Below are positions 26,424-46,842 of a stretch of 64,000 bases of DNA, piece after piece. The notes beneath the pieces are model-generated. The model did not search any database, was not told the origin of the DNA, and was given only the letters and a program-made list of their open reading frames with translations. Position 1 is the stretch's first letter. Each line of letters opens with the position of its first letter. The translations under genes and the position numbers were made by a program. The DNA is taken from the NCBI RefSeq assembly GCF_900106525.1, contig NZ_FNOG01000001.1, positions 634,128 to 698,127 on the forward strand, in the 5' to 3' direction. Source of the stretch: Lysobacter enzymogenes. GTDB taxonomy: Bacteria > Pseudomonadota > Gammaproteobacteria > Xanthomonadales > Xanthomonadaceae.

Positions 26424-28151
<1,728 letters not shown>

Positions 28152-28285
28152 CTCAGCCCTCAGTTTTCCCCACCCTGACTTTACCGCAATCTCAGGTCGT
28201 GGCGAGCGGAACGGCGTCGCTATTCTGCGGTCGGCCCATGTCGGGTCCAACCGGGACAAGGTATCCTCCGCCACGGGGAGGTGGC

Positions 28286-29254
28286 ATGTCTATTTCTATC
28301 GTTTTGCCGGCCAAGAACGAGTCGGAGGGGCTACGCCGTACCTTGCCGGCGCTGCGTGCGGCGCTGCCGGACGCGGAAATCATCGTGGTGGACGACGGTT
28401 CGACCGACGACACCACCCAAGTCGCTGCCGGGCTCGGCGCCAAGGTGCTGCGCTCGCCGTATTCGATGGGCAACGGCGCGGCGATCAAGCGCGGCGCGCG
28501 CGCCGCGCGCGGCGAGGTGATCGTGTTCATGGACGCCGACGGCCAGCACGACCCGGCCCATATCCAACTGTTGCTGGCCGAGCTCGACCGCGGCTACGAC
28601 ATGGCCGTGGGCGCGCGCAACGCCAGCGGCCAGGCCAGCGTCGGCCGCGGCGCCGCCAACGCGCTGTACAACCGGCTGGCCAGCTGGATGACCGGACACA
28701 AGGTCCAGGACCTGACCTCGGGCTTCCGCGCGGTGCGCGCGGGCAAGTTCCGCGAGTTCCTGCATTTGTTGCCGAACGGTTTCAGCTATCCGACCACCAG
28801 CACGATGGCGTTCTTCCGCAGCGCCTACCCGGTGACCTACGTGCCCATCGACGTGGCCAAGCGGGTCGGCACGCAGAGCCACATCCGTCCGCTGCGCGAC
28901 GGCGTGCGCTTCTTGCTGATCATCTTCAAGATCGCCACGCTGTATTCGCCGTTGAAGCTGTTCGCGCCGACCGCGGTGACCTTCGCCCTGCTGGGCCTGG
29001 GCCACTACGCCTGGACTTTCGCCACCCAGGGCCGCTTCACCAACATGAGCGCGCTGATGCTGAGCGCGGCGGTGATCGTGTTCCTGATCGGTCTGGTGTC
29101 GGAGCAGATCACCGGTCTGACCTATCTGCACGGGCGCGACGCGGCGTCCGGTCCCAGCGAGGACGAGCCGGCCGGGAGCGATCCTCTCAAGGCCGCACCT
29201 CTCAAGAACGATGCCCTCAGGAGCGACGCTCTCGGGAGCGGCGAATGGCAGTAG
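28286..29254 (+). CDS. Polyprenyl-phosphate-type family 2 glycosyltransferase
   Basis: 322 aa. The GT2 domain opens with ISIVLPAKNESEGL, has VVDDGSTDDT and the metal-binding MDADGQHDP, and resembles DPM1/DPG synthases that charge polyprenyl phosphate with a sugar. Two membrane helices follow (about residues 228-282). The tail carries four imperfect 5-residue repeats (SDPLK-APPLK-like, encoded by 15-bp units at 29,177-29,236). ATG 28,286 has a strong ribosome site (GGGGAGG). First gene of a ten-gene plus-strand run; substrate sugar unknown. Confidence 0.8.
   Translation: MSISIVLPAKNESEGLRRTLPALRAALPDAEIIVVDDGSTDDTTQVAAGLGAKVLRSPYSMGNGAAIKRGARAARGEVIVFMDADGQHDPAHIQLLLAELDRGYDMAVGARNASGQASVGRGAANALYNRLASWMTGHKVQDLTSGFRAVRAGKFREFLHLLPNGFSYPTTSTMAFFRSAYPVTYVPIDVAKRVGTQSHIRPLRDGVRFLLIIFKIATLYSPLKLFAPTAVTFALLGLGHYAWTFATQGRFTNMSALMLSAAVIVFLIGLVSEQITGLTYLHGRDAASGPSEDEPAGSDPLKAAPLKNDALRSDALGSGEWQ
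29177..29236 (+). repeat. Four degenerate 15-bp repeats in the GT2 gene tail
   Basis: Four consecutive in-frame 15-bp units (29,177-29,191; 29,192-29,206; 29,207-29,221; 29,222-29,236) share a CTCAAG or CTCNGG end and encode SDPLK, AAPLK, NDALR and SDALG. The array lies in the last 25 codons of the glycosyltransferase gene, just before the next start codon. Confidence 0.6.
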
Positions 29255-29946
29255 CCGATGGTCGCGGCGGGCTGCGTGCCCGCTTCCGTGGCTATTCGGG
29301 CGCGCGTCCGGACGTGGTGCGCTTGCTCCCGCCCGAAACCAGGCGGGTGCTGGACGTAGGCTGCGGTGCCGGCATGAGCGCTGCGCTGATCCGCGAGCGC
29401 TGTCCGCAAGTGCGCGTGGTCGGCGTGGAGCCGTCGCCGGAATTGGCCGAGCACGCGCGCGGCCAGCTGGACGAAGTGCTGCAAGGCCGCATCGACGATC
29501 CCGAGACGATACGCGCGCTGGCCGCGCAAGCGCCGTTCGACGCGATCGTCTGCGCCGACGTGCTCGAGCACGTGGCCGAGCCGCTGCCGGTGCTGCAGGC
29601 CCTGGTCGGGCGTCTGGCCGAAGGCGGTTGCGTGATCACCAGCCTGCCCAACGTTCGTCATCTTTCCACTTTCATTGCGCTCGGATTGCTCGGCACCTGG
29701 CCGGCGCGCGAACGCGGCATCCACGACCGCACCCACCTGCGCTTCTTCGCCCGCCGCGACATCCTGCGATTGGGCGCGCAGGCCGGGCTCAGCGCGCGCG
29801 CCGAACGCCGCAACGTGCGCCTGATCGAATCCAAGGCCTGGAGCCTGGTGCCGGCCAAATTGCTGGATTTCTGGCCGTTCCGCGGCTTCGTGACCTTCCA
29901 GTACCTGCACCGCTGGGTGCGGGCCGACCGCGGTCATGGCGGTTGA
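29245..29946 (+). CDS. Class I SAM-dependent methyltransferase
   Basis: 233 aa. Rossmann methyltransferase motif I is VLDVGCGAGMSAALI (about residues 35-49), followed by VVGVEPSPELAEHA and FDAIVCADVLEHVAEPLPVL. C-terminal features (RGIHDRTHLRFFARRDILRL) are typical of glycan-cluster methyltransferases of the Methyltransf_11/23 group. It overlaps the GT2 gene by 10 nt and the next gene by 11 nt. Probably methylates a sugar or sugar-lipid made by this cluster; acceptor unknown. Confidence 0.75.
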   Translation: MAVADGRGGLRARFRGYSGARPDVVRLLPPETRRVLDVGCGAGMSAALIRERCPQVRVVGVEPSPELAEHARGQLDEVLQGRIDDPETIRALAAQAPFDAIVCADVLEHVAEPLPVLQALVGRLAEGGCVITSLPNVRHLSTFIALGLLGTWPARERGIHDRTHLRFFARRDILRLGAQAGLSARAERRNVRLIESKAWSLVPAKLLDFWPFRGFVTFQYLHRWVRADRGHGG

Positions 29947-30796
29947 TGCGCGCAAGGCCTGGCGGCTGGGCCTCGGATACGCCCTGGCCGTAGCGGCGCT
30001 GCTGTTCGCGGCGCGCTACCTGGGCGTGCAGGGGCCGCAGTTCTGGCAGGCGCTGCAGGCGATCGCGCCGGAACGCTTGGCGCTGGCCTTCGTACTGTTC
30101 GCGGCCTCTCTGGCGATCAACGCCGGCGCGTTCGCGCTCGCCAACCGGGCCTTCGCCGCGCCGGCGCGCGGCGGGTTACTGGCCGGAGTGTGGCTGGCGA
30201 CGTTGTTGGCGAAGTACGTGCCGATCGGGGTCGGGCACGTCTTGGGGCGCGGCCTGTCGCTGGCGCGCTTCGGCGTGCCTGCGCGCACGAGCGTGATCGT
30301 CGGCGTGCTCGAACAGGGCTTCTCGCTGGCGCTTTGCGCGGGCATCGCGGCGGCGGCGTATGCGCTCGACCGCGGTTTCGGCCTGGGGTTGTGGGTCGCG
30401 GCGGCGGTGGCGGCCGCGCTGGCGCTGGCCGCGGCGCTGTGGGCGCTGCGCGCGCGCACGCCGGTGCGGGCCGCGCCGCTGGCAGCGTCGCTGGCGGGCT
30501 ATGCCTTGGCGATGGCGCCGTATGCAGGCGCCTATCTGGTGCTGGTCGCGCCGGCCGATGCGCTGAAGTTCGTGCAGGCCTTGTTCGCCGGCACCGTCGC
30601 CGGGGTGTTGGCGATCCTGGCGCCGGGCGGGTTGGGCGTGCGCGAATCGGTGGTCGCCTCGATGTCCGGCGCGGCCGCGGCGAGCGCGGTGCTGGCCGGA
30701 ACGGTCGCGGCGCGGGCGCTGATCCTGGCCAGCGAGTGCGCCGGAACGCTGGCCGGACGGATCTTGATGCGCCGCGCGCAGCAGGGCGGGGCATGA
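29936..30796 (+). CDS. LPG-synthase-TM/YbhN-like integral membrane protein, possible lipid-sugar flippase
   Basis: 286 aa with seven or eight membrane helices and few charged residues. KYVPIGVGHVLGR and the late PGGLGVRES motif (about residues 228-236) match the UPF0104 / lysylphosphatidylglycerol synthase TM region family. Members next to glycosyltransferases are often thought to move lipid-linked sugars, but function here is inference. Coupled to both neighbours by overlaps. Confidence 0.65.
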   Translation: MAVDARKAWRLGLGYALAVAALLFAARYLGVQGPQFWQALQAIAPERLALAFVLFAASLAINAGAFALANRAFAAPARGGLLAGVWLATLLAKYVPIGVGHVLGRGLSLARFGVPARTSVIVGVLEQGFSLALCAGIAAAAYALDRGFGLGLWVAAAVAAALALAAALWALRARTPVRAAPLAASLAGYALAMAPYAGAYLVLVAPADALKFVQALFAGTVAGVLAILAPGGLGVRESVVASMSGAAAASAVLAGTVAARALILASECAGTLAGRILMRRAQQGGA

Positions 30797-31965
30797 GCGC
30801 GCCGACCCTGATCGTCGCTGGATTGCGCGCCTCGGGTTCGGGCTATCCCAATGCCGAACAGACCTTGCTGCAGTTGCAAGCGCACGATGTCGCGCGACTG
30901 CGCGACCTGGGCAAGCCGCTGCCGCCGCAGCTGCATCTGTGGAAGCTGCGCGGGCTGTCGCCGCTGCGGCAGCTGTGGACGTTGGCGCGCCTGGGACTGG
31001 GCAATCTGCTCAGCCTGCTGCGCGTGCTGCTCGCCGCGCGCGGCCGCGCGGTGCCGGTGTACGTGCCGTATCCGAGCCTGTTCTTCATGTGGCTGGCGTC
31101 CTGGCTGCCGGCGCGGCTGCGCCCGCGCTGCATCGTCGATGCCTACATCTCGATCTGGGATTCGATGTTCCGCGACCGCGCGCGCGGCGGCGATTCGGCC
31201 GCTTCGCGCCGGGTCCGGCGGATCGAGGCGCGGGCGCTGCGTGCGGCGGCGGTGGTGCTGGTGGACACCGAAGCCAACCGGCAGGCGATGATCGACGACT
31301 TCGGCCTGGACCCGCAGCGAGTGCGCTCGCTGCCGCTGGCGATCGACAGCGACGCGTTCCTGGCGATCGACGATGCCGCGGCGCGCGGCGACGGCCCGCT
31401 GCGGGTCTTGTTCGTCGGCACCCTGATCCCGCTGCACGGCGTGCCGGCGATCGTCGATGCGGTGCGGCGGCTGTCGGCCGATCCGGCACAGCGCGGGCGG
31501 TTCGCGTTCCGCTTCGTCGGCGACGGCCAGCTCGGCCCGGCGCTGGAGGCGTTCATCGCCGAACAGGCCGCCGCCGGCGGCGACGGCGCGCGGATCGACT
31601 GGGTGCGCGACTGGCAGCCGCTCAGCGCGCTGGCGCAGGAAATCGCCGCCGCCGATATCTGCCTGGGCGTGTTCGGCGGCGACGGCAAGGCGGCGCGGGT
31701 GCTGCCGTTCAAGCTGTACATGTACCTCGCCGCCGGGCGCGCGGTGGTCAGCCAGGCGAAGTCGTCGCTGCCGCAGGGCGCGCCGCCGCCGCCGCTGATC
31801 GCGGTGGCGTCGGCCGACGGCGCCGAACTGGCGCGCGCGCTGGCGGCCTTGGCCGACGACCCCGCGCGCCGCGTCGCGCTGGGCCGGCAGGCGCGGGAGT
31901 ATTTCCACGCGCATCTGGCGCCGGCCCGGCTGATGGCGTTGTGGCGCGGGCTGCTGGCGCCGTAG
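30793..31965 (+). CDS. Family 4 glycosyltransferase
   Basis: 390 aa, two Rossmann-like lobes (GT-B). The C-terminal lobe shows VLFVGTLIPLHGVPAIVDAV, FRFVGDGQLG and, in place of the usual E-x7-E, KAARVLPFKLYMYLAAGRAVV. The N-terminal lobe has PVYVPYPSLFFMWLASW, a membrane-associated acceptor-side segment. Donor and acceptor are not predictable. ATG overlaps the preceding stop. A 184-bp gap separates it from the UbiA gene. Confidence 0.75.
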   Translation: MSAPTLIVAGLRASGSGYPNAEQTLLQLQAHDVARLRDLGKPLPPQLHLWKLRGLSPLRQLWTLARLGLGNLLSLLRVLLAARGRAVPVYVPYPSLFFMWLASWLPARLRPRCIVDAYISIWDSMFRDRARGGDSAASRRVRRIEARALRAAAVVLVDTEANRQAMIDDFGLDPQRVRSLPLAIDSDAFLAIDDAAARGDGPLRVLFVGTLIPLHGVPAIVDAVRRLSADPAQRGRFAFRFVGDGQLGPALEAFIAEQAAAGGDGARIDWVRDWQPLSALAQEIAAADICLGVFGGDGKAARVLPFKLYMYLAAGRAVVSQAKSSLPQGAPPPPLIAVASADGAELARALAALADDPARRVALGRQAREYFHAHLAPARLMALWRGLLAP

Positions 31966-32149
31966 CGGGCGCCGGGGCGTGCGCGGTTTCATGGGAAAAT
32001 AGCCGGCGCACCGGGCCAGGGGGACGGCCTGGAGCGGACGTTGGGGCGCGCGGCGACGCGGCCCGCGCAGCCGGCGACGGCGCGGCTTCGGCCGCGATCG
32101 AGACTATGTGCGAGCGGCTCGCGCGACGAGCCTTGCGACGACCCGACCG
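31966..32149 (+). other. Gap between the two halves of the island
   Basis: 184 bp, GC-rich, no gene of its own. The downstream frame is open from GTG 32,108, so part of it may be coding. CATGGGAAAATAGCC near 32,000 is the only AT-rich spot and might include a -10 element; not resolved. Confidence 0.3.
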
Positions 32150-33628
32150 ATGCAGGATCTTCGAGTGCAGGATCTTCGAGCCCAAATGCCAGCCACGCCT
32201 CCAAACGAGCTCGACGACGGCGTCGCCTTGTGCGTCGACCTCGACGGCACGCTGCTCAAGTCCGATCTGCTGTACGAATCGGCGCTGGCCCTGCTCGGGC
32301 GCAAACCCTGGCTGCTGTTCCTGCTGCCGCTGTGGCTGCTGCGCGGCAAGGCCGCGCTCAAGCGCGAGATCGCCGAGCGGGTCGAACTCGATGCCGCGCG
32401 CCTGCCTTACGACGAGCGGGTGATCCAGGCGCTGCGCGACACCCGGGCGCGGCCGCGCGTGCTGTGCACCGCCAGCGACGCCAAGTTCGCCGATCAAGTG
32501 GCCGCGCATCTGGGTTTGTTCGAATTGGTGCTGGCCAGCGCGGACGGGGTGAATCTGTCCGGCGAAAGCAAGGCGCGCCGGTTGGTGGAGCGCTTCGGCG
32601 AACGCGGCTTCGACTACATGGGCAACGCCAGCGCCGATTTGCCGGTGTGGTCGCGCGCGCGCCTGGCCTGGGTGGTCAACGCGCCGGCGGGGCTGCGCGC
32701 GCGCGCAGCGCGCGCGGCGCAGGTCGCGCGCGAACTGCCACCGGCCGGCGGCGGCGCGCGCGCGTGGATCAAGGCCTTGCGCCTGCACCAATGGCTGAAG
32801 AACCTGCTGGTGTTCCTGCCGTTGCTGGCTTCGCACCGTTTCCTCGACGCCCAGGCCATCGTCGCCGCGCTGCTGGCTTTCGCCGCTTTCAGCCTGAGCG
32901 CGTCGGGCGTGTATCTGCTCAACGACCTGCTCGACCTCGACGCCGACCGCCAGCATCCGCGCAAGCGCCTGCGGCCGTTCGCATCGGGCACGTTGCCGCT
33001 GCTGCACGGCTTGTTCGCCGCACCGTTGCTGGCCGCGATCGGCTTGGCTCTGGGTCTGGTCGTGGGGCCGCTGTTCGCTTGCGTGCTGGCCGGCTACTAC
33101 GCGATGACCCTGGCCTATTCGCTGCGGCTCAAGCGCGTGGTGATGGTCGATGTGATCGCCTTGGCCGGGCTCTACACCGTGCGCATCATCGGCGGCGCGG
33201 TCGCCATCGGCGCGACCTTGTCGTTCTGGCTGCTGGCGTTCTCGATGTTCCTGTTCCTCAGCCTGGCCATGCTCAAGCGCTACACCGAGCTCATGCTGGT
33301 CCTGGGCAACGGCCGCAGCCAGGCCAACGGCCGCGGCTACGCGGTCGACGACCTGCCGCTGATCCAGTCGCTGGGCAGCGCCGCGGGTTACCTCGCGGTG
33401 CTGGTGTTCGCGCTGTACATCAACAGCCCGGAGAGCCTGGCGCTGTACGCGCGGCCGCAGGTGCTGTGGTTGATCTGCCCGTTGTTGCTCTATTGGGTCA
33501 GCCATCTGTGGATCACCTCGCATCGCGGCCGCATGGACGACGATCCGGTGGTGTTCGCCGCGACCGACCGCGCCAGCCAGGTCGTGATCGGCCTGAGCGG
33601 CCTGCTGGTGCTGGGCGCGATCGGATGA
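32150..33628 (+). CDS. HAD-UbiA fusion: polyprenyl-phosphate phosphoribosyltransferase-like
   Basis: 492 aa. Residues about 25-190 are a HAD-superfamily hydrolase (CVDLDGTLLKSD, then FDYMGNASADLPVW). Residues about 200-490 are a UbiA-type prenyltransferase of about eight helices with NDLLDLDADRQHPRKRLRP, the NDxxDxxxD prenyl-diphosphate-type site. The closest known role is mycobacterial Rv3806c, which makes decaprenyl-phosphoryl-5-phosphoribose; the HAD part could then remove the 5-phosphate (inference). Starts at 32,150 or 32,186 (or GTG 32,108) are possible. Stop overlaps the DprE1-like gene. Confidence 0.75.
   Translation: MQDLRVQDLRAQMPATPPNELDDGVALCVDLDGTLLKSDLLYESALALLGRKPWLLFLLPLWLLRGKAALKREIAERVELDAARLPYDERVIQALRDTRARPRVLCTASDAKFADQVAAHLGLFELVLASADGVNLSGESKARRLVERFGERGFDYMGNASADLPVWSRARLAWVVNAPAGLRARAARAAQVARELPPAGGGARAWIKALRLHQWLKNLLVFLPLLASHRFLDAQAIVAALLAFAAFSLSASGVYLLNDLLDLDADRQHPRKRLRPFASGTLPLLHGLFAAPLLAAIGLALGLVVGPLFACVLAGYYAMTLAYSLRLKRVVMVDVIALAGLYTVRIIGGAVAIGATLSFWLLAFSMFLFLSLAMLKRYTELMLVLGNGRSQANGRGYAVDDLPLIQSLGSAAGYLAVLVFALYINSPESLALYARPQVLWLICPLLLYWVSHLWITSHRGRMDDDPVVFAATDRASQVVIGLSGLLVLGAIG
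32151..32180 (+). repeat. Perfect 15-bp tandem duplication at the HAD-UbiA N-terminus
   Basis: TGCAGGATCTTCGAG occurs twice in direct succession (32,151-32,165 and 32,166-32,180), encoding QDLR twice. It lies between two possible start codons (32,150 and 32,186), so a change in copy number would stay in frame. Confidence 0.7.
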
Positions 33629-34962
33629 GCGAGGCCGGGCAGTCCTGGGGCCGCTTTCCGCGCGTCAGCCAGCGGCTGGCGCCGTTGCGCGACCGGGCCA
33701 AGCCGCTGCCGGCTTGCGAAGGCGCGCTGCTGCCTTACGGCAACGGCCGCAGCTATGGCGACAGCTGCCTCAACCCGGGCGGCACCTTGCTGCAGACCCG
33801 CGGCCTGGACCGCTTCATCGCCTTCGACGCCGACAGCGGCGTATTGCGCTGCGAAGCCGGCGTCACCCTGGCCGAGATCATCGACCTGGCATTACCGCAG
33901 GGCTGGTTCCTGCCGGTGACGCCGGGCACCCGCCATGTCACCGTCGGCGGCGCCATCGCCAACGACGTGCACGGCAAGAACCACCACGGCTGGGGCAGTT
34001 TCGGCCATCACCTGCGTTGCTTCGAGTTGCTGCGCAGCGATGGCGCGAGGCGGCTGTGCGCGCCGGGCGATGCCGCGCGGGGCGATGCATGGTTCGCCGC
34101 CACCGTCGGCGGCCTCGGCCTGACCGGGGTGGTGACTTGGGCCGAACTGCAATTGCGGCGCGTGGCCGGGCCGTGGATGCAGGCCGAGTCGATCCGCTTC
34201 GGCGGGCTGGACGAATTCTTCGCCGTGTCGGCCGAATCGGCGCAGACCCACGAGTACACGGTGGCCTGGATCGATTGCCTGGCGCGCGGCGCCGCGCTCG
34301 GCCGCGGCCACTTCATCCGGGCCGAACACTGCGTTGCGCAGGCCGCCGATGCGTCGGCGGCATCTTCGCGCCCGGCCTCGCCGCCGCCGCGGCTGGCGAT
34401 GCCGCTGGTGCCGCCGGTGTCGCTGGTGAACCGGCTCAGCCTGCGGCCGTTCAACTGGTTCTATTACCACCGCCAGCGCGCGCCGCGGCGGCACGACCGA
34501 GTCGGTTACCAGAGCTATTTCTATCCGCTCGACGGCATCGGCGAGTGGAACCGCATGTACGGGCCGCGCGGCTTCCTCCAGCATCAGTGCGTGCTGCCGC
34601 CGGCGCAGGCGCGCGAAGGCGTGGCGGCGATGCTCGCGCAGATCTCGCGCAGCGGCCGCGGCTCGTTCCTGGCGGTGCTCAAGGAGTTCGGCGCCAGGCC
34701 GTCGCTGGGCATGCTGTCGTTTCCGCGCGAAGGCACCACGTTGGCGTTGGACTTCCCCAACGACGGCGCGCAGACCTTCGCCCTGCTCGAACGCCTGGAC
34801 GCGATCGTGGCCGAGGCCGGAGGTGCGGTGTATCCGGCCAAGGACGCGCGCATGTCGGCTGCGCTGTTCCGCGCGAGCTATCCGCGCTGGCGCGAATTCC
34901 AGGACTATATCGACCCCCGATTTTCCTCCGGCTTTTGGCGCCGGGCGATGGAGCAGGTATGA
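33625..34962 (+). CDS. DprE1-like FAD-dependent decaprenylphosphoryl-ribose 2'-oxidase
   Basis: 445 aa. FAD-binding-4/ALO architecture with YGNGRSYGDSCLNPGG and GTRHVTVGGAIANDVHGKNHHGWGS, nearly identical in pattern to M. tuberculosis DprE1. The C-terminal YPAKDARMSAALFRASYPR matches YTAKDSRTTAETFHAMYPR of DprE1, with the catalytic lysine at K406 (Mtb K418). The position matching Mtb Cys387 is Ala374. It should oxidise the ribose 2'-OH of polyprenyl-phosphoryl-ribose. Tight overlaps with the UbiA and DprE2-like genes support one pathway. Confidence 0.85.
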   Translation: MSEAGQSWGRFPRVSQRLAPLRDRAKPLPACEGALLPYGNGRSYGDSCLNPGGTLLQTRGLDRFIAFDADSGVLRCEAGVTLAEIIDLALPQGWFLPVTPGTRHVTVGGAIANDVHGKNHHGWGSFGHHLRCFELLRSDGARRLCAPGDAARGDAWFAATVGGLGLTGVVTWAELQLRRVAGPWMQAESIRFGGLDEFFAVSAESAQTHEYTVAWIDCLARGAALGRGHFIRAEHCVAQAADASAASSRPASPPPRLAMPLVPPVSLVNRLSLRPFNWFYYHRQRAPRRHDRVGYQSYFYPLDGIGEWNRMYGPRGFLQHQCVLPPAQAREGVAAMLAQISRSGRGSFLAVLKEFGARPSLGMLSFPREGTTLALDFPNDGAQTFALLERLDAIVAEAGGAVYPAKDARMSAALFRASYPRWREFQDYIDPRFSSGFWRRAMEQV

Positions 34963-35690
34963 CGCGAGTGTTGATCATCGGCGCCGGTTCGGCGATCGCG
35001 GAGGCGGTCGCGCGGATCTACGCCGCGCGCGGGGCGTCGCTGTTTCTGGTCGGGCGCGACCGCGAGCGGCTGGCGGCGATCGCCGCCGATCTGCGGGTGC
35101 GCGGCGCGGCCGGCGCCGAAGTCCATGCGATGGACGCCAATGCGTTCGAGCAGCACGCGGCCATGCTGGACGCGGCCTGGGCCCGGCTCGGCGGCGTGGA
35201 TCTGGCGTTGATCGCGCACGGCACCTTGTCGGACCAGAAGGCCTGCGAGGGATCGGCCGCGCTGACGTTGGCGGAGTTTTCGACCAATGGCTTGTCGCCG
35301 ATCGCCCTGGCCACGGCGATCGCGCCGCGGCTGGCGGCCGGCGCGACGCTGGCGGCGATCTCCTCGGTCGCCGGCGATCGCGGGCGCGCCAGCAACTATG
35401 TCTACGGCAGCGCCAAGGCCGCGGTGAGCGCATTCTTCAGCGGCCTGCGCCAGCGCCTGGGCGCGGGAGGCGTCAACGTGCTGACGATCAAGCCCGGCTT
35501 CGTCGACACGCCGATGACCCAGGCCTTCGCCAAGGGCCCGCTGTGGGCCAAGCCCGATGCGGTGGCGCGCGGCATCGTGCGCGCGATCGACCGGCGCCGC
35601 GGCGTGGCCTATCTGCCGGGATTCTGGTGGGCGATCATGCAGATCATCCGGGCGATTCCCGAACCCGTCTTCCGCCGTCTCAAGCTGTAA
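34959..35690 (+). CDS. DprE2-like SDR reductase (decaprenylphosphoryl-2-keto-erythro-pentose reductase)
   Basis: 243 aa short-chain dehydrogenase. NAD(P) loop VLIIGAGSAIAEAVARIYAARG, catalytic Ser in ISSVAGDRG and YGSAK (YxxxK), and a C-terminal hydrophobic end (GFWWAIMQIIRAIPEPVFRRL) as in mycobacterial DprE2. Partner of the upstream oxidase: it reduces the 2-keto intermediate, so ribose is epimerised to D-arabinose on the lipid carrier. ATG overlaps the oxidase stop (ATGA). Confidence 0.82.
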   Translation: MTRVLIIGAGSAIAEAVARIYAARGASLFLVGRDRERLAAIAADLRVRGAAGAEVHAMDANAFEQHAAMLDAAWARLGGVDLALIAHGTLSDQKACEGSAALTLAEFSTNGLSPIALATAIAPRLAAGATLAAISSVAGDRGRASNYVYGSAKAAVSAFFSGLRQRLGAGGVNVLTIKPGFVDTPMTQAFAKGPLWAKPDAVARGIVRAIDRRRGVAYLPGFWWAIMQIIRAIPEPVFRRLKL

Positions 35691-35700
35691 CCGCATCGCG

Positions 35701-36654
35701 ATGAACGACAAGAACGCCAAGATCGTACTGACCGGCGCCGCCGGCCTGGTCGGCCAGAACCTCGTGGTCGAGCTCAAGGCGCAGGGCTATGCGCGGCTGG
35801 TGGCGATCGACAAGCACGCCCGCAATCTGGCGGTGCTGAAGGCGCTGCATCCCGAAGTGGAAACGATCCATGCCGACCTGGCCGAGCCGGGCGAGCGGGC
35901 GCGCTGGGAAGACAGCCTGCGCGGCGCCGCCTGTGTGGTGCAGCTGCATGCGCAGATCACCGGCAAGCACGCCGGCGCGTTCGTGCGCCACAACGTCGAT
36001 GCGACCGGCATCGTGCTCGATGCCTGCAAGCGCCATGCGGTGCCTTACCTGGTGCACATCAGCTCGTCGGTGGTGAACTCGGTGGCCGCGGACGACTACA
36101 CCGAAACCAAGAAACGCCAGGAGGCGATGGTCGTCGCCAGCGGCCTGCGCCACTGCGTGCTGCGCCCGACCCTGATGTTCGGCTGGTTCGACCCCAAACA
36201 CCTGGGCTGGCTGTCGCGCTTCATGGCGCGCACGCCGGTGTTTCCGATTCCCGGCGACGGCAAGTTCATGCGCCAGCCGTTGTACGAGCGCGATTTCTGC
36301 CGTTGCGTGGTCAAGTGCATCGAGCGCGAGCCCGACGGCGCGGTCTACGACATCGTCGGCGACACCCGCATCGACTATGTCGACATCATCCGCACGATCA
36401 AGCGGGTGAAGCGCTTGCGCACCTGGATCGTGCACATTCCCATCGGCCTGTTCGCGTTCCTGCTGCGCACCTACGCCGTCTTCAGCCGCAAGCCGCCGTT
36501 CACCGCCGACCAGCTCAAGGCGCTGTCGGCGGGCGACGATTTCAGCGGCGTCGATACCGCGGCGGTGTTCGGCGTGGCCCAGCACGGCTTCGAGGAGGCC
36601 GTGCGCGAGAGTTATTGCGATCCCGTCTATTCCAAGATCGTGCTCGAGCGTTGA
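35701..36654 (+). CDS. Extended SDR, NAD-dependent epimerase/dehydratase
   Basis: 317 aa. N-terminal IVLTGAAGLVGQNLV (GxxGxxG), catalytic Ser in HISSSVVNS and YTETK (YxxxK). After about residue 225 there is a hydrophobic segment (TWIVHIPIGLFAFLLRTYAVF) that may sit on the membrane, suggesting a lipid-linked sugar substrate. It follows the DprE2-like gene by 10 bp. Whether it acts on the arabinose lipid or a second sugar is not known. Confidence 0.7.
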   Translation: MNDKNAKIVLTGAAGLVGQNLVVELKAQGYARLVAIDKHARNLAVLKALHPEVETIHADLAEPGERARWEDSLRGAACVVQLHAQITGKHAGAFVRHNVDATGIVLDACKRHAVPYLVHISSSVVNSVAADDYTETKKRQEAMVVASGLRHCVLRPTLMFGWFDPKHLGWLSRFMARTPVFPIPGDGKFMRQPLYERDFCRCVVKCIEREPDGAVYDIVGDTRIDYVDIIRTIKRVKRLRTWIVHIPIGLFAFLLRTYAVFSRKPPFTADQLKALSAGDDFSGVDTAAVFGVAQHGFEEAVRESYCDPVYSKIVLER

Positions 36655-36693
36655 GCGCTCGGCCGCGGCCGTTTCCAGGACGATGAAGTTCCG

Positions 36694-37998
36694 ATGAGCG
36701 AAGAAAAAAAACGCTATGCGGTCGTGGGCGCCGGGCCGATGGGGCTGATGGCGGCGATGGAGCTGCTCGAGCGCGGGCACCGGGTCGACCTCTACGAGCG
36801 CGACGACCGCATCGGCGGCATGTCGGCGAGCTTCGATTTCGACGGCCTCGAGATCGAGCGCTACTACCACTTCGTGTGCAAGACCGACCACGCGCTGTTC
36901 GAACTGATGGCGTCGCTGGGGCTGTCCGAGCGTTTGAAGTGGACCGACACCCGGATGGGCTATTACTACGACGGCGCCCTGTACGACTGGGGCACGCCGT
37001 GGGCGCTGCTGGCCTTTCCCAAGCTCGATCCGATCAGCAAGTTCCGCTATGCGCTGCATGTGATGGCGACCAAGAACGTCAGCGACTGGAGCGCGCTGGA
37101 CCGGGTCAATGCCACCTCGTGGCTGCGCCGCTGGCTCGGCGAGCGCGGCTATGAGGTGTTGTGGCGGCGCACCTTCGAGCTCAAGTTCTTCGAATACACC
37201 GAGGGCCTGTCGGCGGCGTGGATCGGCACCCGGATCAAGCGCATCGCGCTGTCGCGGCGCAATCTGTTCAACGAAAGCCTGGGCTATATCGAGGGCGGCT
37301 CGGAGACTTTGCTGGAAGCGATGGAGCGCAGGATCCTGGCGCTGGGCGGTGCGATCCATCTGCGCCAGGGCATCGATCAAGTCAACGTCGACGGCGGGCG
37401 AGTGACCGGCGTGCGCGTGGCCGGCGTGGATCGCGACTGCGATGCGGTGCTGTCGACGGTGCCGATCCAGTACGTGCCGGCGATGGTGCCGGCGCTGCCG
37501 GCGCAGTTCGCCGAGCGCGTGCGCAAGATCGAGAACATCCCGGTGGCCTGCGTGATCCTCAAGTTGCGCCAGCCGTTGAGCGGCAACTTCTGGACCAACA
37601 TCAGCGACCGCGCGATCGAGATTCCGGGGCTGATCGAATACTCCAACCTCAATCCCGAGTCCGGCGGCATCAGCATCGTCTACGCGCCGTTCTACATGCC
37701 CAAGACCCATCCCAAGTGGGCGTCGAGCAACGACAGCCTGATCGACGAGGTGATCGGCTACCTGGCTGCGATCAATCCGCAGTTCCGGCCGGAGTGGGTG
37801 CTGGCCCGGCATTGCCACCGTTACGACTTCGCCCAGACCATCTGCCCGCCGGGCTTCCAGGAGATGCTGCCGCCGATGAAGACGCCGGTGCAGGGGTTCT
37901 ACATGGCCGATACCTCCTACTACTACCCGGAGGACCGCTCGATCAACGAGAGCGTGGCGGTCGGGCGCAAGCTGGCCGCGGCCGCGCTGGCCGGTTGA
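36694..37998 (+). CDS. NAD(P)/FAD-dependent oxidoreductase (amine-oxidase/phytoene-desaturase-like fold)
   Basis: 434 aa. Dinucleotide-binding start YAVVGAGPMGLMAAMELLERGHRVDLYERDDRIGGMS with the typical GxGxxG and a following FAD/NAD-linker; C-terminal FAD contact YYPEDRSINESVAVGRKLA. Distantly like UDP-galactopyranose mutase and protoporphyrinogen oxidase, which also act on glycan or lipid precursors in such clusters. Separated from the epimerase by 39 bp. Reaction unknown. Confidence 0.7.
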   Translation: MSEEKKRYAVVGAGPMGLMAAMELLERGHRVDLYERDDRIGGMSASFDFDGLEIERYYHFVCKTDHALFELMASLGLSERLKWTDTRMGYYYDGALYDWGTPWALLAFPKLDPISKFRYALHVMATKNVSDWSALDRVNATSWLRRWLGERGYEVLWRRTFELKFFEYTEGLSAAWIGTRIKRIALSRRNLFNESLGYIEGGSETLLEAMERRILALGGAIHLRQGIDQVNVDGGRVTGVRVAGVDRDCDAVLSTVPIQYVPAMVPALPAQFAERVRKIENIPVACVILKLRQPLSGNFWTNISDRAIEIPGLIEYSNLNPESGGISIVYAPFYMPKTHPKWASSNDSLIDEVIGYLAAINPQFRPEWVLARHCHRYDFAQTICPPGFQEMLPPMKTPVQGFYMADTSYYYPEDRSINESVAVGRKLAAAALAG

Positions 37999-38008
37999 GC
38001 GCGCGGCC

Positions 38009-38413
38009 ATGGTTTCCAGGCGCTTCGTCTTGTTCGTGGCCGCCGGCGGTTTCGCCGCCGCGGTCAACTTCGGCTCGCGCCTGCTGCTGAGCCGGTGGCT
38101 GGATTATGTAGTAGCGATCGCGATCGCCTATGGCCTGGGCATGGCGACCGCGTTCGTGCTCAATCGCGCGTTCGTGTTCGAGGCCTCGGCCGGCGCGTTG
38201 CGCCGGCAGATCGGCTGGTTCGTCGCGGTCAACGCGGCGGCGGTGTTGCAGACCATCGCGATCAGCCTGTTGTTCGCCCGCGTCGTGTTGCCGTGGCTGG
38301 GAATCGCGACGCATGCGGAAACGATCGCGCATGCGATCGGGATCGCGGTGCCGGTGGTCACCAGCTACCTCGGGCATAAATACCTTTCGTTCGCGCCCGG
38401 GCGCGACGGCTGA
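38009..38413 (+). CDS. GtrA family small membrane protein
   Basis: 134 aa with four membrane helices; FVAAGGFAAAVNFGSRLLLS at the start and LGHKYLSFAP at the end fit the GtrA family. GtrA proteins are linked to moving or presenting polyprenyl-phosphate sugars. A GtrA protein (Rv3789) also lies next to dprE1 and dprE2 in mycobacteria, where it was proposed to handle decaprenyl-phosphoryl-arabinose. Last plus-strand gene of the island, facing the convergent gene 22 bp away. Confidence 0.78.
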   Translation: MVSRRFVLFVAAGGFAAAVNFGSRLLLSRWLDYVVAIAIAYGLGMATAFVLNRAFVFEASAGALRRQIGWFVAVNAAAVLQTIAISLLFARVVLPWLGIATHAETIAHAIGIAVPVVTSYLGHKYLSFAPGRDG

Positions 38414-38435
38414 GCGCGCGCGGCAGTGCCCGCGT

Positions 38436-40403
38436 TTACTGCGCTGCGGAGTGCGGCGCCGGTTCGGAGCGCAACGGTTCGCTGTAGCGCAGCGTGTAAT
38501 TGGCCTGGAAACCGGGCTGGCCCAGCCAGTGCGCACCGCGCAGGCGCAGTTTGCTCACGCGTCTGCTTTCGCCGGCCTTGAGCCAGTTCCACAGCGATTG
38601 GGTGCTGTCGATATGCGGCGACAGCAGGAAACCTGCGCGCGCGGCGCCGGGAACGATGCGGAAGCTGTGTTGGCTGCCGTCGTCGAGTTCCAGGTCGATG
38701 TACAACTGCGGCGCGCGCTGCAGCGCCGAGGCCGCGCGCGCCCAGGCGGTGGGCCGAACCTCGATGGCGACGGCGAGCATGCGGCCGGGGCTGGAGGGCA
38801 CGTCGACGAATTCGCCCAGGCGCGCCTGAGCCTCGCCGAGCGGGCGCGATCGCGCCTGCGCTTGCGCGTCGCGGCGCATCAGCAACAGGCCGCGTTCGCC
38901 CGAGTCAGGGGTGTAGGTTTGCAGCACCTGCAGGAACGCCTGCGGGTCTTCGCTGGTCGGAAGCCGGCCGTCGATGGCGCGCAAGTCCAGCAGCATCCAC
39001 TTGGGGCCGCGCGCGGAGGCGATGAAGTCGCGGTTGAGCGCGGTCAGTTCCGGGCTGTAGGCGGAGTAGCTTTGAAACACCGGGCGAGGGCGGTAGTCGA
39101 GCCGGTTGAGGAACAGCACGCCCTGGCCGACCGACATGATGTCGATGCTGTCCGCGCCTACTGCGGCGCGGGTCTGCGGCATCGCCGCCTCGTTGCGCGT
39201 CCTGGCCGCGGCTTGCGCCCATTCGTCGGCGCGCATGGGCAACAGGATCAGATCCAGCGCGCGCTGCGCAGCGGCGTCGGCGCTGGATGCGCCGATGGCG
39301 AGGAACAGTTTCTGATCGGCGCGCAACGCCGGCAGCGCGAATGCGCTCAGCGCGCAGATCAGCGCGGCGACGGCGCCGGCGCGGCGGATCGCGGCGGGCG
39401 CGGCCAGCGCGCCGGCCAGCACCGCCATCAGCGCTGCGGTGGGGAAGAACACCAGCAAGTGGGTCGGATCGACCCGGGTGAACGCCGCCTTGAACGCCAG
39501 CGCCGCGGTGGCGGCGATCAGTGCGAACAGGCCGATGCGTTCGTTCCAGCGCAGATTCGCGCGCACGAACGCCGCGGCCAGCGCCGCCACCACGACGGCG
39601 AGCGCTACATAGCCGATGAGGTCGGTGCCCGCCGCGCCGGGCCGCTGCATCGCATCGGCGTAGCCGACCGCTACCTGCAACGCGGTATGGATGTGTCGCC
39701 CGAGCCCGGAAAACTCCTGGCCGAGCACGCGCCACAACAACAGCGAGGCGGCTACGCTGGCGCCGGCCGCCAGCCATCCGCTGCGGCCGTGCCGCGCCAT
39801 CGTCAGCGGTGCGCACAGCAGCCACAGCAGCCACAAGGGAAACAGGCTGAACTTCGCCAGCCACGGCACCGCGCAGGCGATGCCGGCCACGACCGCCAGC
39901 GCCGTGCGCAAACCGGCGCCGCGTTCGCGCACTTGCCACAGCGCGAGCAGCGCGATGGGGTGGAGCGTGAGCCACAGCACATCGCCCGCCCAGGCCGTGC
40001 CGAACCAGGCCACCAGCGCGAGCACCATCAGCCGCGGCCACAGCGCGAGGGATGAACACGCGAACCAGAACAGCAGCGCGTACGCCGCGGACAAGGCCAC
40101 CTGGCCGGCGATCGCGGCCGGCAGCATCTCGGGCAGATAGCTGAACTGCGGGCTCAACCAGCCGAGGGGGCCGTAGGTGAAGACCAGATCGCGGCCCCAT
40201 TGCGCGCCGTGCTGCGCGCCCCAGGCGACCACGGTGGCCCAGGACGGGTCGATGTCGTAGCCCGCCGGCGGTTGGTCGAAGCGGAACCCGAGCAGGAACA
40301 CCAGCGCGGTGGCGGCAAACAGCGCGATCGCCGACCAACTGATCTTGCGCGGCTGGACGGAGTCGGCCCCGCTTTCGGCACGGTGCATGGCGGTCGCGCT
40401 CAC
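38436..40403 (-). CDS. Large polytopic membrane protein, candidate TfpW-like/GT-C glycosyltransferase
   Basis: 655 aa. About eleven to thirteen hydrophobic helices up to residue 380, then a soluble C-terminal domain of about 250 residues. The first outer loop has YDIDPSW with acidic residues as in GT-C enzymes, and a DLVFTYGPLGWL motif. P. aeruginosa TfpW, a pilin arabinosyltransferase, is also a large membrane protein placed downstream of pilA; similarity here is by topology and context only. It overlaps the upstream gene by 4 nt (ATGA). No name is assigned. Confidence 0.6.
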   Translation of the reverse strand: MSATAMHRAESGADSVQPRKISWSAIALFAATALVFLLGFRFDQPPAGYDIDPSWATVVAWGAQHGAQWGRDLVFTYGPLGWLSPQFSYLPEMLPAAIAGQVALSAAYALLFWFACSSLALWPRLMVLALVAWFGTAWAGDVLWLTLHPIALLALWQVRERGAGLRTALAVVAGIACAVPWLAKFSLFPLWLLWLLCAPLTMARHGRSGWLAAGASVAASLLLWRVLGQEFSGLGRHIHTALQVAVGYADAMQRPGAAGTDLIGYVALAVVVAALAAAFVRANLRWNERIGLFALIAATAALAFKAAFTRVDPTHLLVFFPTAALMAVLAGALAAPAAIRRAGAVAALICALSAFALPALRADQKLFLAIGASSADAAAQRALDLILLPMRADEWAQAAARTRNEAAMPQTRAAVGADSIDIMSVGQGVLFLNRLDYRPRPVFQSYSAYSPELTALNRDFIASARGPKWMLLDLRAIDGRLPTSEDPQAFLQVLQTYTPDSGERGLLLMRRDAQAQARSRPLGEAQARLGEFVDVPSSPGRMLAVAIEVRPTAWARAASALQRAPQLYIDLELDDGSQHSFRIVPGAARAGFLLSPHIDSTQSLWNWLKAGESRRVSKLRLRGAHWLGQPGFQANYTLRYSEPLRSEPAPHSAAQ

Positions 40404-42310
40404 TCGGGCATCTTGGCGATCAGTCCGCGGATCTCTTCGAGTTCGCCTTGGGCGACCCGCTCGAAGCCGCGCACTCGGGCCTCGACTTCAGCCAGGGTGC
40501 GGATCGCATCCTGCTTGTGCCCGTTGTGGATGTAGATGCGGGCGAGCAATCCGCCGACCGCCGGATCCGCAGCGCGGTTCCAGGCCAGCCGCGCATGTTC
40601 CTGCGCACGAATCCAGTCGCCAGAGCGGGTGTAGGCGGTGGCGGCGATGATCCGCAGCAGCCACTTGGGCTTGGAAGTTTCGTCCTGCCGGGACGCCATT
40701 TGCAGGATCTTGTCGATGGCCGCGGCGATGCGGGCGTTGTCGACGCGCGTGCCGCAAGTGCCTTGGTCGACCATCTCCAGCAGATAGCGGAACGACAGCG
40801 AATCCTGCAGCCGCACCGGCGCGGCGAAGTGGGCGGCCGCGCGGTCGAGTTCGGCCGGGTCGCCGCTTTTGTTTTCCCAGCACGAGGCAGCGATGGTGCT
40901 GATGTAGCCGGTGGCGCGGTGGCTGAGGATCGGGTCGTCGGTATAGCGCTTGAGCAATGCCCGCGCCTGGGCGAAATCGCCGCCCTTCATCGCCAGCGAC
41001 GCCGCTGAAATGATCGCGCGCTGCGAATGCGGATGTTGCGCGATCGCGTTGCGGGTGAGGCTGTCCTCGCTGCGCCAGATCTGCACCTGATTCCAGGTGA
41101 CCCAGGAAAACCCGCCGGCCGCGATCAGGAACGCTGCGGGCAGGGCGATGCGGTAAGCGGGCCGGTCGAAACGCCAACGCGCCGGCAACAGATCCTTGAG
41201 CCCGGCCACGGCCACCAACAGGCCGATGCTGGGCAGGTAGTTGCGGTGTTCGAAGTACAGCTCCAGCGGCAACACCGTGGATTCCACGCCCTGGGCGACG
41301 AGGTAGAAGAACCAGCCGGCGAAGAAGCTCGGCGCCCTGCGTCGGAACGCGATGGCGGCCGTGCTGATGGCGGCCAGCGCGAGCAGCGACGCCAGCGTGG
41401 TGGCCGGCGAGAGCAGGCCGTGCGAGATCGGGAAGTCGTCGGTGTACACGCCCATCACGGCGCCGCGCGGCCAGAAGATCTGGGCGATGTACTGCATCAG
41501 CGCGCGCGACTGGCTCAGCAGGCGCTCGACCAGGGTGAAGTCGCGCGCTTCGTAGCCGACCAGGAAATGTTCGGGGTGGCGCAGGATCAGCAGCGTACCG
41601 GCGATCGCCGGCAGCAGCAGGAGCGCGGCGTAGAAGAGTTTGATCAGCGCCGGACGCGAAGACGGGTTGCGGAAGTAGGCGATCTCCAGCACCAGGCACA
41701 GCGCCGGCGCGACCACCGCGTTCTCCTTGCTGAAGGCGCCCAGCGCCAGCATCAGCGGGAACCACAGGAACAGCCGCAGCGCGGCCGCGCGGGTTTCGCC
41801 GTTTTCCAGGCGCACGCGCGCGGACAGATACACCCACAGCGCGGCCAGGGTGAAGAAGGCGCTGAGCTGCGCCATGCGCTGCACCGCATACAGCACGGTG
41901 CTGACGTTGATGGGGTGGATCAGCCACAGCGCGGCGACGGCGACGGCGATCTTTTCCGCATGCGGTGCGAGCTTTTCGTCGCGCGCGAGCATGCGCCGCG
42001 CCACCTGCCAGGCCAGTGCCGCGCACGCGATGTGCAGCAGCAGGTTGCCGAACTTGAACGGAAACGGCCGCAACCCGCCGGTGGCCGCGCTGAACCAGAA
42101 GCTGGCCATGGATACCGGACGGCCGAGCATGCCCGACTGGTTGCCGAAGACGATTTCCAGTGCGTTGGCCTGGCCGCTCAGCCATTGGTCCAGCGGTTCA
42201 AGGTTGAGCGGATCGTCGAAGACGAACGGCCCTTTCAGTCCGCTCCAGTACAGCGCGATGGCGAGTAGCGCGAAGGCGTAGAAGAACAGGCGCGAATTGA
42301 GTTGGGACAT
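40400..42310 (-). CDS. TMTC-like GT-C membrane glycosyltransferase with C-terminal TPR region
   Basis: 636 aa. About ten or more helices with an early periplasmic loop FVFDDPLNLEPLDQW, the DD motif expected of GT-C enzymes, then a TPR-like helical region from about residue 430 (NAIAQHPHSQRAIISAASLAMKGG). Such PMT/TMTC-like proteins transfer a sugar from a lipid carrier to proteins or glycans. It lies directly downstream of a pilin gene in the same direction, so pilin glycosylation is a good guess. The frame is open to 42,709, but ATG 42,310 gives the natural start and lies after the pilin terminator. Confidence 0.65.
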   Translation of the reverse strand: MSQLNSRLFFYAFALLAIALYWSGLKGPFVFDDPLNLEPLDQWLSGQANALEIVFGNQSGMLGRPVSMASFWFSAATGGLRPFPFKFGNLLLHIACAALAWQVARRMLARDEKLAPHAEKIAVAVAALWLIHPINVSTVLYAVQRMAQLSAFFTLAALWVYLSARVRLENGETRAAALRLFLWFPLMLALGAFSKENAVVAPALCLVLEIAYFRNPSSRPALIKLFYAALLLLPAIAGTLLILRHPEHFLVGYEARDFTLVERLLSQSRALMQYIAQIFWPRGAVMGVYTDDFPISHGLLSPATTLASLLALAAISTAAIAFRRRAPSFFAGWFFYLVAQGVESTVLPLELYFEHRNYLPSIGLLVAVAGLKDLLPARWRFDRPAYRIALPAAFLIAAGGFSWVTWNQVQIWRSEDSLTRNAIAQHPHSQRAIISAASLAMKGGDFAQARALLKRYTDDPILSHRATGYISTIAASCWENKSGDPAELDRAAAHFAAPVRLQDSLSFRYLLEMVDQGTCGTRVDNARIAAAIDKILQMASRQDETSKPKWLLRIIAATAYTRSGDWIRAQEHARLAWNRAADPAVGGLLARIYIHNGHKQDAIRTLAEVEARVRGFERVAQGELEEIRGLIAKMPE

Positions 42311-42356: not shown

Positions 42357-42388
42357 AAAAAACGAACCCCGGACAAGCCGGGGTCGTT
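42357..42388 (-). terminator. Intrinsic terminator after the third pilin gene
   Basis: ACCCCGG (42,366-42,372) pairs with CCGGGGT (42,378-42,384) over a 5-nt loop; AACG/CGTT extend the stem past one bulged base. Read on the minus strand it ends in TTTTTT (42,362-42,357). It sits between the pilin at 42,415 and the glycosyltransferase start at 42,310. Confidence 0.75.
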
Positions 42389-42414: not shown

Positions 42415-42831
42415 CTACAGCCTGCATTCGGCGGGCAGTTGCGACTTGGGAATTCCGTTCAATTCGGTGCATTGCCATTCGATCCGGCCCTTGCCTTCCG
42501 TGGGCTTGAGCTGGATCGAAGCTGCTTCGCCGCCGGTGTCCTTGGTCACCAATTTGATGACGCCCTGGTCTTCTATCGTCACGGAAGCGCAGTACTTGCT
42601 CGCATTGAACTTGTACGGAATCGAGGTGACGGTGATCAGGGCGAGCTGGCCCAGGTCCTGGGCCGCTTCGGCGACGGCGAGCTTGGCGCCTGCGCCTACG
42701 TAGAGACATTCCGCGTTCTTGCTGCGGATGGAGTAGTCCTGGTAGGCGGGCAGCGCGATTGCGATGAGCAAGCCGAGGATCGCGATGACGATCATCAGCT
42801 CGATGAGGGTGAAACCCGATTGCGATTTCAT
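42415..42831 (-). CDS. Type IV pilin, divergent third copy
   Basis: 138 aa prepilin. Six-residue leader (MKSQSG) is cut before [22 protein letters not shown]; Glu5 of the mature protein is present. Four cysteines (AEC, KYC, QC, AEC) suggest two disulfide bonds. It keeps the PAYQDY and KSQLPAEC ends of the other two pilins but differs widely in the middle. No sigma-54 promoter is visible upstream, and the preceding pilin has a terminator, so its expression may be low or separately controlled. Confidence 0.9.
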
Positions 42832-43008: not shown

Positions 43009-43428
43009 TTAGCCGCGGCACTCGGCCGGCAGCTGCGACTTCTTGGCGTTCTTGGTTTCGGTGCACTTCCAGTCGATGCGGCCAGCGCTGAAGGTCGGGT
43101 GCAGCTTGAACTCGGCGACCGGGGTGCCGCCGGTGCCCGACGCGACGGTCAGGATGTCGCCGCCGTCCTGGACGGCAACGCTCTTGCAGTACTTGCTGGC
43201 GACGAAGCTGTAGCCGGTGTTGGTGGTGGTGACCTTGCTCAGGTCGCCACGGTCCTGAGCGGTTTCCGACACCGACAGCTTGGCGGCGGCGGCGACGTTC
43301 AGGCACTCGGCGTTCTTGGTGCGGATGGTGTAGTCCTGGTAGGCCGGCAGAGCGATGGCGATCAGGATGCCGAGGATCGCGATGACGATCATCAGTTCGA
43401 TCAGGGTAAAGCCTTGCTGCTTCTTCAT
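43009..43428 (-). CDS. pilA: Major type IV pilin PilA, copy 2
   Basis: 139 aa prepilin with leader MKKQQG cut before [22 protein letters not shown]. Mature protein has four cysteines and a Thr-rich alpha-beta loop ([11 protein letters not shown], mature Thr61-63 and Thr65), a plausible O-glycosylation region. About 70 percent identical by eye to the pilin at 44,276, so the two are recent duplicates. The frame is open to 43,545, but ATG 43,428 is required for the leader. A near-perfect sigma-54 promoter lies about 100 bp upstream. Confidence 0.95.
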
Positions 43429-45335: not shown

Positions 45336-46745
<1,410 letters not shown>

Positions 46746-46842
46746 TGCGCCCTCCACCGCCCACGATAACTTAACAAACCTGTCGCGGCCAAGACGCGAG
46801 TGGCACGTTTTCTGCTTGCCGTGCGCGCAGTCACACTGCCGC

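Follow-up and report, generated by a model that had tools for sequence, protein, structure and literature searches.

The stretch of 64,000 nucleotides of Lysobacter enzymogenes DNA analysed here (contig NZ_FNOG01000001.1 of assembly GCF_900106525.1, positions 634,128 to 698,127), which we refer to as the window, carries a type IV pilus locus in which pilB is separated from three pilin genes by genes for a putative glycosylation system. Gene calls together with Pfam and NCBIfam searches resolved the intervening block into ten co-oriented genes on the + strand, followed by the genes for two large membrane proteins, M2 and M1. A preliminary description of this DNA had noticed the block of about 14 kb and, within it, a UbiA-type prenyltransferase, a DprE1-like oxidase and a DprE2-like reductase in overlapping order plus a GtrA protein, and both observations were borne out by the gene calls and family searches. 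The features of the locus are the following (positions refer to the window):

24245-25132, - strand: pilD (Pfam Peptidase_A24)
25152-26420, - strand: pilC (Pfam T2SSF)
26424-28274, - strand: pilB (Pfam T2SSE)
28286-29254, + strand: GT2, polyprenyl-phosphate glycosyltransferase of the dolichol-phosphate-mannose (DPM) synthase/AglJ type (Pfam Glycos_transf_2, E 2.3e-32)
29245-29946, + strand: class I methyltransferase (Methyltransf_23, E 4.2e-21)
29936-30796, + strand: multi-pass membrane protein, weakly LPG_synthase_TM-like (17.7 bits, cut-off 33.4; hydropathy)
30793-31965, + strand: GT4-type glycosyltransferase (Glyco_trans_4_4, E 4.6e-8)
32150-33628, + strand: HAD-UbiA, a HAD phosphatase fused to a UbiA-type polyprenyl-phosphate phosphoribosyltransferase (PDB 8j8j, NCBIfam PRK08238)
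33625-34962, + strand: DprE1-like flavin adenine dinucleotide (FAD) oxidase (PDB DprE1, NCBIfam DprE1)
34959-35690, + strand: DprE2-like short-chain dehydrogenase/reductase, YxxxK at residues 149-153 (PDB DprE2, NCBIfam DprE2)
35701-36654, + strand: EPI, nicotinamide adenine dinucleotide (NAD)-dependent epimerase/dehydratase-like protein (Epimerase, E 6.7e-18)
36694-37998, + strand: AOX, FAD amine-oxidase-like protein (PRK07233 family, 529 bits)
38009-38413, + strand: membrane protein of the GtrA family that might act as flippase or partner for a lipid-linked sugar (GtrA_DPMS_TM, E 5.1e-17)
38436-40403, - strand: M2, GT-C-like membrane protein with a C-terminal beta-sandwich, candidate arabinofuranosyltransferase
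40400-42310, - strand: M1, membrane protein with C-terminal tetratricopeptide repeats (TPRs) and a TMTC-like motif order, candidate pilin glycosyltransferase (TPR_19, E 7.9e-9)
42365-42385, - strand: hairpin resembling a terminator, with a T run after it, located between pilin 3 and M1
42415-42831, - strand: type IV pilin 3 (Pfam N_methyl and Pilin)
43009-43428, - strand: type IV pilin 2 (Pfam N_methyl and Pilin)
44276-44698, - strand: type IV pilin 1 (Pfam N_methyl and Pilin)
Within the open frame 45336-47138, - strand: PilR (read from the open frame alone)
46843-48468, - strand: PilS (6TM_PilS, HisKA, HATPase_c)

In a sequence search of the PDB, the best relative of the DprE1-like protein was mycobacterial DprE1 (E 4.6e-77). 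HAD-UbiA matched only two entries, both of decaprenylphosphoryl-5-phosphoribose (DPPR) synthase (8j8j, E 2.4e-30), and the DprE2-like protein matched DprE2 best (21gq_C, E 7.2e-28), with 101 bits as opposed to 59 for the next entry. In view of these E-values and of the gap of 42 bits, the matches of the three enzymes cannot be attributed to chance, and their mycobacterial counterparts are the best solved relatives. On the NCBIfam equivalog models all three remained below the cut-offs: HAD-UbiA reached 161 bits on the DPPR synthase model (cut-off 207; 663 bits on PRK08238), the DprE1-like protein 366 bits (cut-off 500) and the DprE2-like protein 180 bits (cut-off 250). We therefore designate these proteins as 'like' only and not as strict orthologues. 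As a separate observation, Ala374 of the DprE1-like protein aligned in the PDB alignment with Cys387 of the mycobacterial enzyme, while Lys406 is kept opposite Lys418. We take Cys387 and Lys418 to be important residues of mycobacterial DprE1.

Kelly and co-workers have studied seven residues in ORF15 of Citrobacter youngae, namely D18, N247, D248, D251, D255, R366 and E369 (PMC11127046), and the alignment with HAD-UbiA showed that their equivalents D30, N258, D259, D262, D266, R377 and E380 are all kept. The fused HAD domain carries a DLDGT motif, with D30 as the counterpart of ORF15 D18, and was scored by Pfam at 26.0 bits (cut-off 27). Sequence comparison thus identified a phosphoribosyltransferase, a 5'-phosphatase and a DprE1/DprE2 pair, and family searches, PDB relatives and the functional residues of HAD-UbiA agree with the earlier suggestion that these are parts of a route to polyprenyl-phosphoryl D-arabinofuranose. 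Judged by sequence, the locus very probably encodes the synthesis of a predicted polyprenyl-phosphoryl arabinofuranose or Araf-derived donor; the set of genes concerned is called the arabinose cassette below. The scores below the equivalog cut-offs might also be taken to mean that the island is decayed or silent. This is highly improbable, as all frames are open, five block genes with near-exact bounds show a third-position GC of 0.88-0.91, the functional residues of HAD-UbiA are intact, and the series of genes from GT2 through M2 is found again, with 61-88% identity, in two other Lysobacter genomes (G005 and G006).

Two cassette proteins, EPI and AOX, have to our knowledge no counterpart or role in known arabinofuranose pathways. 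They are among the best-kept proteins of the cassette, often with 65-84% identity across genera. In a set of 91 loci, of which 90 carry DprE1 and in which at least three places were entered twice (L101/L108, L103/L109 and L104/L110), AOX was present in 41, with EPI alongside. EPI was mostly 70-84% identical in related loci, where it lies beside AOX and DprE1, and AOX with at least 60% identity was found in 8 of 60 genomes, each of which is DprE1-positive. This distribution would be compatible with a final sugar that is a modified pentofuranose, with EPI and AOX modifying either the lipid-linked sugar or the lipid itself once DprE2 has acted. We regard this alternative as doubtful. About half of the DprE1 loci have neither EPI nor AOX, AOX paralogues with 32-33% identity occur in G005 and in the DprE1-negative genome G016, and the chemistry of the two proteins is not known to us.

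As for the transferase that would use the donor, the predicted model of M2 resembles the GT-C glycosyltransferases in its membrane fold, and AftA and EmbB were among its structure matches. GT136 and TfpW were not among these matches, which excludes a relation to neither. D52, located after the first helix and a possible candidate for the catalytic acid of the first periplasmic loop of GT-C enzymes, is invariant in 8 aligned rows. The membrane parts of M2 and M1 received no Pfam or NCBIfam family name, and PDB profile searches with the two proteins returned only TPR or chance matches, without any GT-C match for M1.

We then compared the occurrence of M2 with that of DprE1 in 20 Lysobacter genomes (including the window's own genome, G000), in a family sample of 297 genomes and in a class sample of 369 genomes. 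Within the genus, M2 was present in all four DprE1-positive genomes and in none of the 16 DprE1-negative ones (Fisher p 2e-4). The 6 M2 carriers of the family sample all belonged to its 39 DprE1-positive genomes (p 3.6e-6), and the 6 carriers of the class sample all belonged to the 69 DprE1-positive genomes found there (p 3.6e-5). The three samples share members, and the tally amounts to 13 distinct carriers, all 13 being DprE1-positive. It should be noted that this tally was made after removal of a weak fragment in the DprE1-negative genome G054 (33% identity over 86 residues, E 1.9e-4), which reduced the count in the 60 genomes from 7 to 6, and that imperfect genes were still scored as M2-positive: the gene is in two fragments in G603 and partial in G300, and in G353 the match contains one stop. 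Weak partial FAD-oxidase matches (E 4e-14 to 6e-4) were left out as well. On a SecA DNA tree of the genus, M2 changed together with the cassette in 3 of 3 independent pairs, as compared to averages of 0.4 for GT2 and 0.2 for M1; on this tree M2 and the cassette label the same set of genomes, because both occur in the same four. M2 lies at the pilin locus in all four genus carriers, including G007, whose cassette is located elsewhere. Based on its modelled fold and its co-occurrence with DprE1, M2 is probably an arabinofuranosyltransferase using the donor of the cassette. Outside the genus, a pilin-like gene lies about 5 kb from the M2 fragments of G603 (L197 3975-9990), and G502 carries an intact M2 about 17 kb from pilB (L196 9623-11548); in both cases DprE1 is encoded elsewhere in the genome. 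The stretches read in G502 contained no prepilin motif.

Both of the large membrane proteins that the preliminary description had placed beside the pilins are present, but they do not form one pair, since M2 tracks the cassette whereas M1 follows the pilins also in cassette-free genomes. The idea that M1 and M2 act together in arabinosylation was rejected, as M1 occurs in 18 of the 20 genus members and the cassette in only 4, and we also rejected them as sequence-detectable homologues of each other (blastp E 5.2, hhalign probability 0.2%).

In a sample of 321 gammaproteobacteria, M1 was found in 90. A scan of the M1 flanks up to 1.5 kb detected a prepilin motif at 27 of the 30 near loci and at 20 of the 30 loci from the class, while the controls were negative at all 30 SecA loci and all 12 DprE1 loci. 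From 29 non-window loci that were among the best matches from the 90 M1-bearing genomes, we took 20 distant ones of up to 19 kb each: 17 of these contained a relative of GT2 (53-67% identity), 17 a prepilin motif and 14 a PilS relative. The GT2 of the window itself matched NCBIfam AglJ with E 3.4e-34 (119 bits, below the cut-off of 325), and its C-terminus shows two hydrophobic segments in the hydropathy profile. No GT2 with more than 36% identity was present in the 91-locus set, and in five genus members GT2 was not found in the stretch of the pil locus examined. A terminator upstream of M1 was detected in 16 of 19 distant gaps (only M1 loci with a prepilin motif were included) and in only 8 of 19 near gaps (17 of the 18 M1-bearing genus members, G013 being left out, plus G031 and G034), as compared to about 1 of 19 random windows. 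The region examined here has 9 terminator-like sites against 5.5 expected, and the sigma-54 pattern looked for near the pilins matched 4 times in the window against 6.3 expected.

M1 thus lies directly downstream of a pilin gene, past a terminator-like hairpin, as described for Pseudomonas accessory genes (PMC11841053). This position would also suit a second assignment, in which M1 is the pilin arabinosyltransferase, a counterpart of TfpW fed by the arabinose donor, and M2 has another role. Such an assignment is improbable given the unequal distribution of M1 and the cassette in the genus; moreover, one of the two nearest M1 genes (58% identity) is that of G018, a genome lacking both the cassette and M2, and in distant genomes the companion of M1 is GT2. 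A different relationship is suggested by residues D32, D33, R64, P65, K195 and E196 of M1, which are invariant in 20 diverse rows. They place DD, RP and KE in the order of the TMTC proteins, ahead of C-terminal TPRs; in TMTC3 these motifs are found at positions 31-32, 71-72 and 188-189, respectively (Table 4, PMC7801869). The RxD, DW, PxxP and ERxxY motifs of TMTC proteins were absent from M1 or just partly matched, no TMTC or GT-C Pfam family appeared among the matches listed for 13 and 20 M1 members, and neither sequence profiles nor a single-sequence model confirmed TMTC homology. From its motifs and its association with pilin genes, M1 may be a TMTC-like pilin glycosyltransferase. In the open-licence literature searched we found no report that combines a pilin with a tetratricopeptide glycosyltransferase, and the matches listed did not mention TMTC. 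The trio of pilin, M1 and GT2 is the more novel part of the locus.

The interval between pilB and the pilins differed considerably among the 20 genus members. In 13 of them GT2 lies beside pilB, with further genes before M1, and in 5 copies of M1 and the pilin directly adjoin pilB. The locus of the remaining 2 is compact and lacks GT2 and M1; a single gene for a sulfatase/EptA-like protein of 581 amino acids separates pilB and the pilin. This gene lies behind the pilin (5753-7498 in L204, which was family-scanned, and 5735-7480 in L205), and its product may be a transferase that modifies the pilin, which would make the gene a further type of pilin accessory gene. In three loci from smaller-genome Lysobacter (L069, L070 and L072), M1-pilin sets are repeated beside pilB, with three M1 copies and no GT2 nearby. 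The arabinose cassette is present in 4 of the 20 genomes (G000, G005, G006 and G007), in 3 of them at the site between pilB and the pilin and in G007 about 109 kb away from the pilin locus. Of the other genes in these intervals, 11 from four cassette-free strains were scanned. They belong to the families of UDP-GlcNAc 2-epimerases, GT4 enzymes, acetyltransferases, LPG_synthase_TM and oxidoreductases, except for 3 to which the scan assigned no family. The methyltransferase gene occurs in 5 of the 20 genomes, one of these being cassette-free. On the SecA tree, at least 3 changes in the state of the cassette have to be assumed, and the closest relatives (G003, G008, G014 and G018) are cassette-free. 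The pilB-pilin interval is therefore a variable glycan locus in most of the Lysobacter examined, and the arabinose cassette is one of its alleles. This replaces the initial view of a unique insertion. The related statement that pilSR, pilA and pilBCD usually lie together is only partly right.

Pilins of P. paraeruginosa are known to carry arabinofuranose (PMC12369383), and the precedent from Pseudomonas on which the preliminary description had drawn is real (PMC12369383, PMC11841053, PMC11127046). For P. paraeruginosa PA7/Pa5196, where TfpW is the transferase and the system includes PSPA7_6245-6251, synthesis of the lipid-linked arabinofuranose donor has been ascribed tentatively to a DPPRS orthologue (PMC11127046). 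The Lysobacter locus resembles this system in having a candidate transferase gene beside the pilin gene and a terminator behind the latter (PMC11841053). However, the phosphatase of P. paraeruginosa is a separate protein (PMC11127046) and its donor genes lie on a separate island away from pilA-tfpW (PMC12369383). In Lysobacter the phosphatase is fused and the donor genes, two candidate transferases and the pilins occupy one locus. The P. paraeruginosa system presumably also includes DprE1/DprE2-type enzymes.

Systems for lipid-linked pentofuranoses have been described and occur widely (PMC11127046). In the ORF15/ORF14/ORF12 (GT136) system of Citrobacter, as in Lysobacter, an N-terminal HAD domain with the same functional residues is fused to a UbiA-type PPPRS. 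Such three-component systems further share with our locus the DprE1/E2 homologues that mark Araf systems and a GT-C transferase, in our locus the candidate M2, that bears an additional domain in the periplasm; in Citrobacter, however, the flippase is of the MATE type instead of GtrA and the proven acceptor is O antigen (PMC11127046). Compared with the Rv3806c/DprE1/DprE2/Rv3789/Emb-Aft system of mycobacteria, from which the best solved relatives of the three enzymes as well as the AftA and EmbB matches of M2 derive, a HAD phosphatase replaces Rv3807c, Ala stands opposite Cys387 of DprE1, and an arabinan-wall context is not known for the Lysobacter cassette. The likeness of M1 and GT2 to eukaryotic TMTC proteins and Dol-P-Man synthase consists in the similar positions of DD, RP and KE, the C-terminal TPRs and a DPM-synthase-like GT2, whereas no significant sequence match to TMTC was found for M1. 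As arabinofuranosylated pilins and lipid-linked pentofuranose systems were already known, the donor pathway as such is ordinary. The differences lie in the assembly at a single locus, in a fused phosphatase encoded next to the pilins and in the two unnamed families of candidate transferases. No title on pilin arabinosylation in Lysobacter was among the matches listed in the open-licence literature.

The family assignments, conserved residues, gene linkage and co-occurrence established by these comparisons tie M1 to the pilins and GT2, and M2 to the cassette. We therefore propose two routes, one for basal glycosylation and one for the addition of arabinofuranose, and on the whole we lean towards seeing the locus as a glycan island that is linked to the pilus and comprises two routes using lipid-linked sugars. 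In the old and general route, GT2 would make a polyprenyl-phosphate sugar, which M1, expressed behind the pilin genes past the terminator, would move onto the pilin in the periplasm. In the route acquired as an allele, HAD-UbiA would build polyprenyl-phosphoryl ribose from phosphoribosyl pyrophosphate and then dephosphorylate it, and the DprE1-like and DprE2-like proteins would epimerise C2 to give polyprenyl-phosphoryl D-arabinofuranose. GtrA would assist the membrane crossing of the lipid-linked arabinofuranose, and M2 would attach arabinofuranose either to the pilin itself or to the residue placed there by M1, while the methyltransferase and GT4 might further diversify the glycan. The final chemistry of the donor and the transferase activities of M1 and M2 are thus inferred, as is the pilin as acceptor.

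With regard to this last point, we slightly favour the pilin or its glycan as the acceptor. O antigen or another glycan remains a strong alternative: the cassette and M2 could decorate a different surface glycan (O antigen, exopolysaccharide or glycolipid) after its polymerisation, the pilus locus being a mere gathering place. We rate this as a serious rival, possible rather than probable. The three-component system has been proven for O antigens, with mention of more elaborate ones in Xanthomonas, and glycan-acting GT-C enzymes can bear carbohydrate-binding domains (PMC11127046), which may be compared with the C-terminal beta-sandwich of M2. Two further observations weigh against the pilin as acceptor. 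Cassettes elsewhere sit away from pilins, prepilin motifs being near just 1 of 80 named DprE1 loci, and the off-site cassette of G007 has a membrane-protein neighbour of its own. The former locus, from a Polarisedimenticolaceae bin (L140 16941-21074), is alone among the named DprE1 loci in having both prepilin motifs and a PilS-like gene at distances of up to 10 kb. The G007 neighbour, encoded after the cassette (L066 14259-15641), is a membrane protein of 460 amino acids that has an SDDW motif but matches no Pfam family; it might be a further transferase using this donor. However, M2 stays at the pilin locus in every genus carrier, even where the cassette is elsewhere, and in the window its gene lies next to M1 and the pilin genes, all in the same orientation. 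Returning to the pilin as acceptor, we tentatively suggest that M1 and GT2 form a bacterial O-glycosylation module of the TMTC/Dol-P-Man-synthase type, present in many gammaproteobacterial pilin operons, that M2 represents a family of GT-C arabinofuranosyltransferases travelling with the cassette, and that in those Lysobacter strains which have both, the pilus glycan is composite, its outer sugar being swapped by exchange of cassettes between pilB and the pilins.

Glycosylation of pilins shields Pseudomonas against pilus-binding phages (PMC11841053). If the proposed routes are correct, a sizeable share of gammaproteobacteria would have a pilin glycosyltransferase similar to a family of human O-mannosyltransferases, and certain strains would also add a sugar known chiefly from mycobacteria. 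In that case, M2 would be a non-mycobacterial GT-C enzyme for arabinofuranose that can be compared with Emb and Aft. The variable interval between pilB and the pilins, for its part, offers natural experiments in the form of related strains that differ in the cassette.

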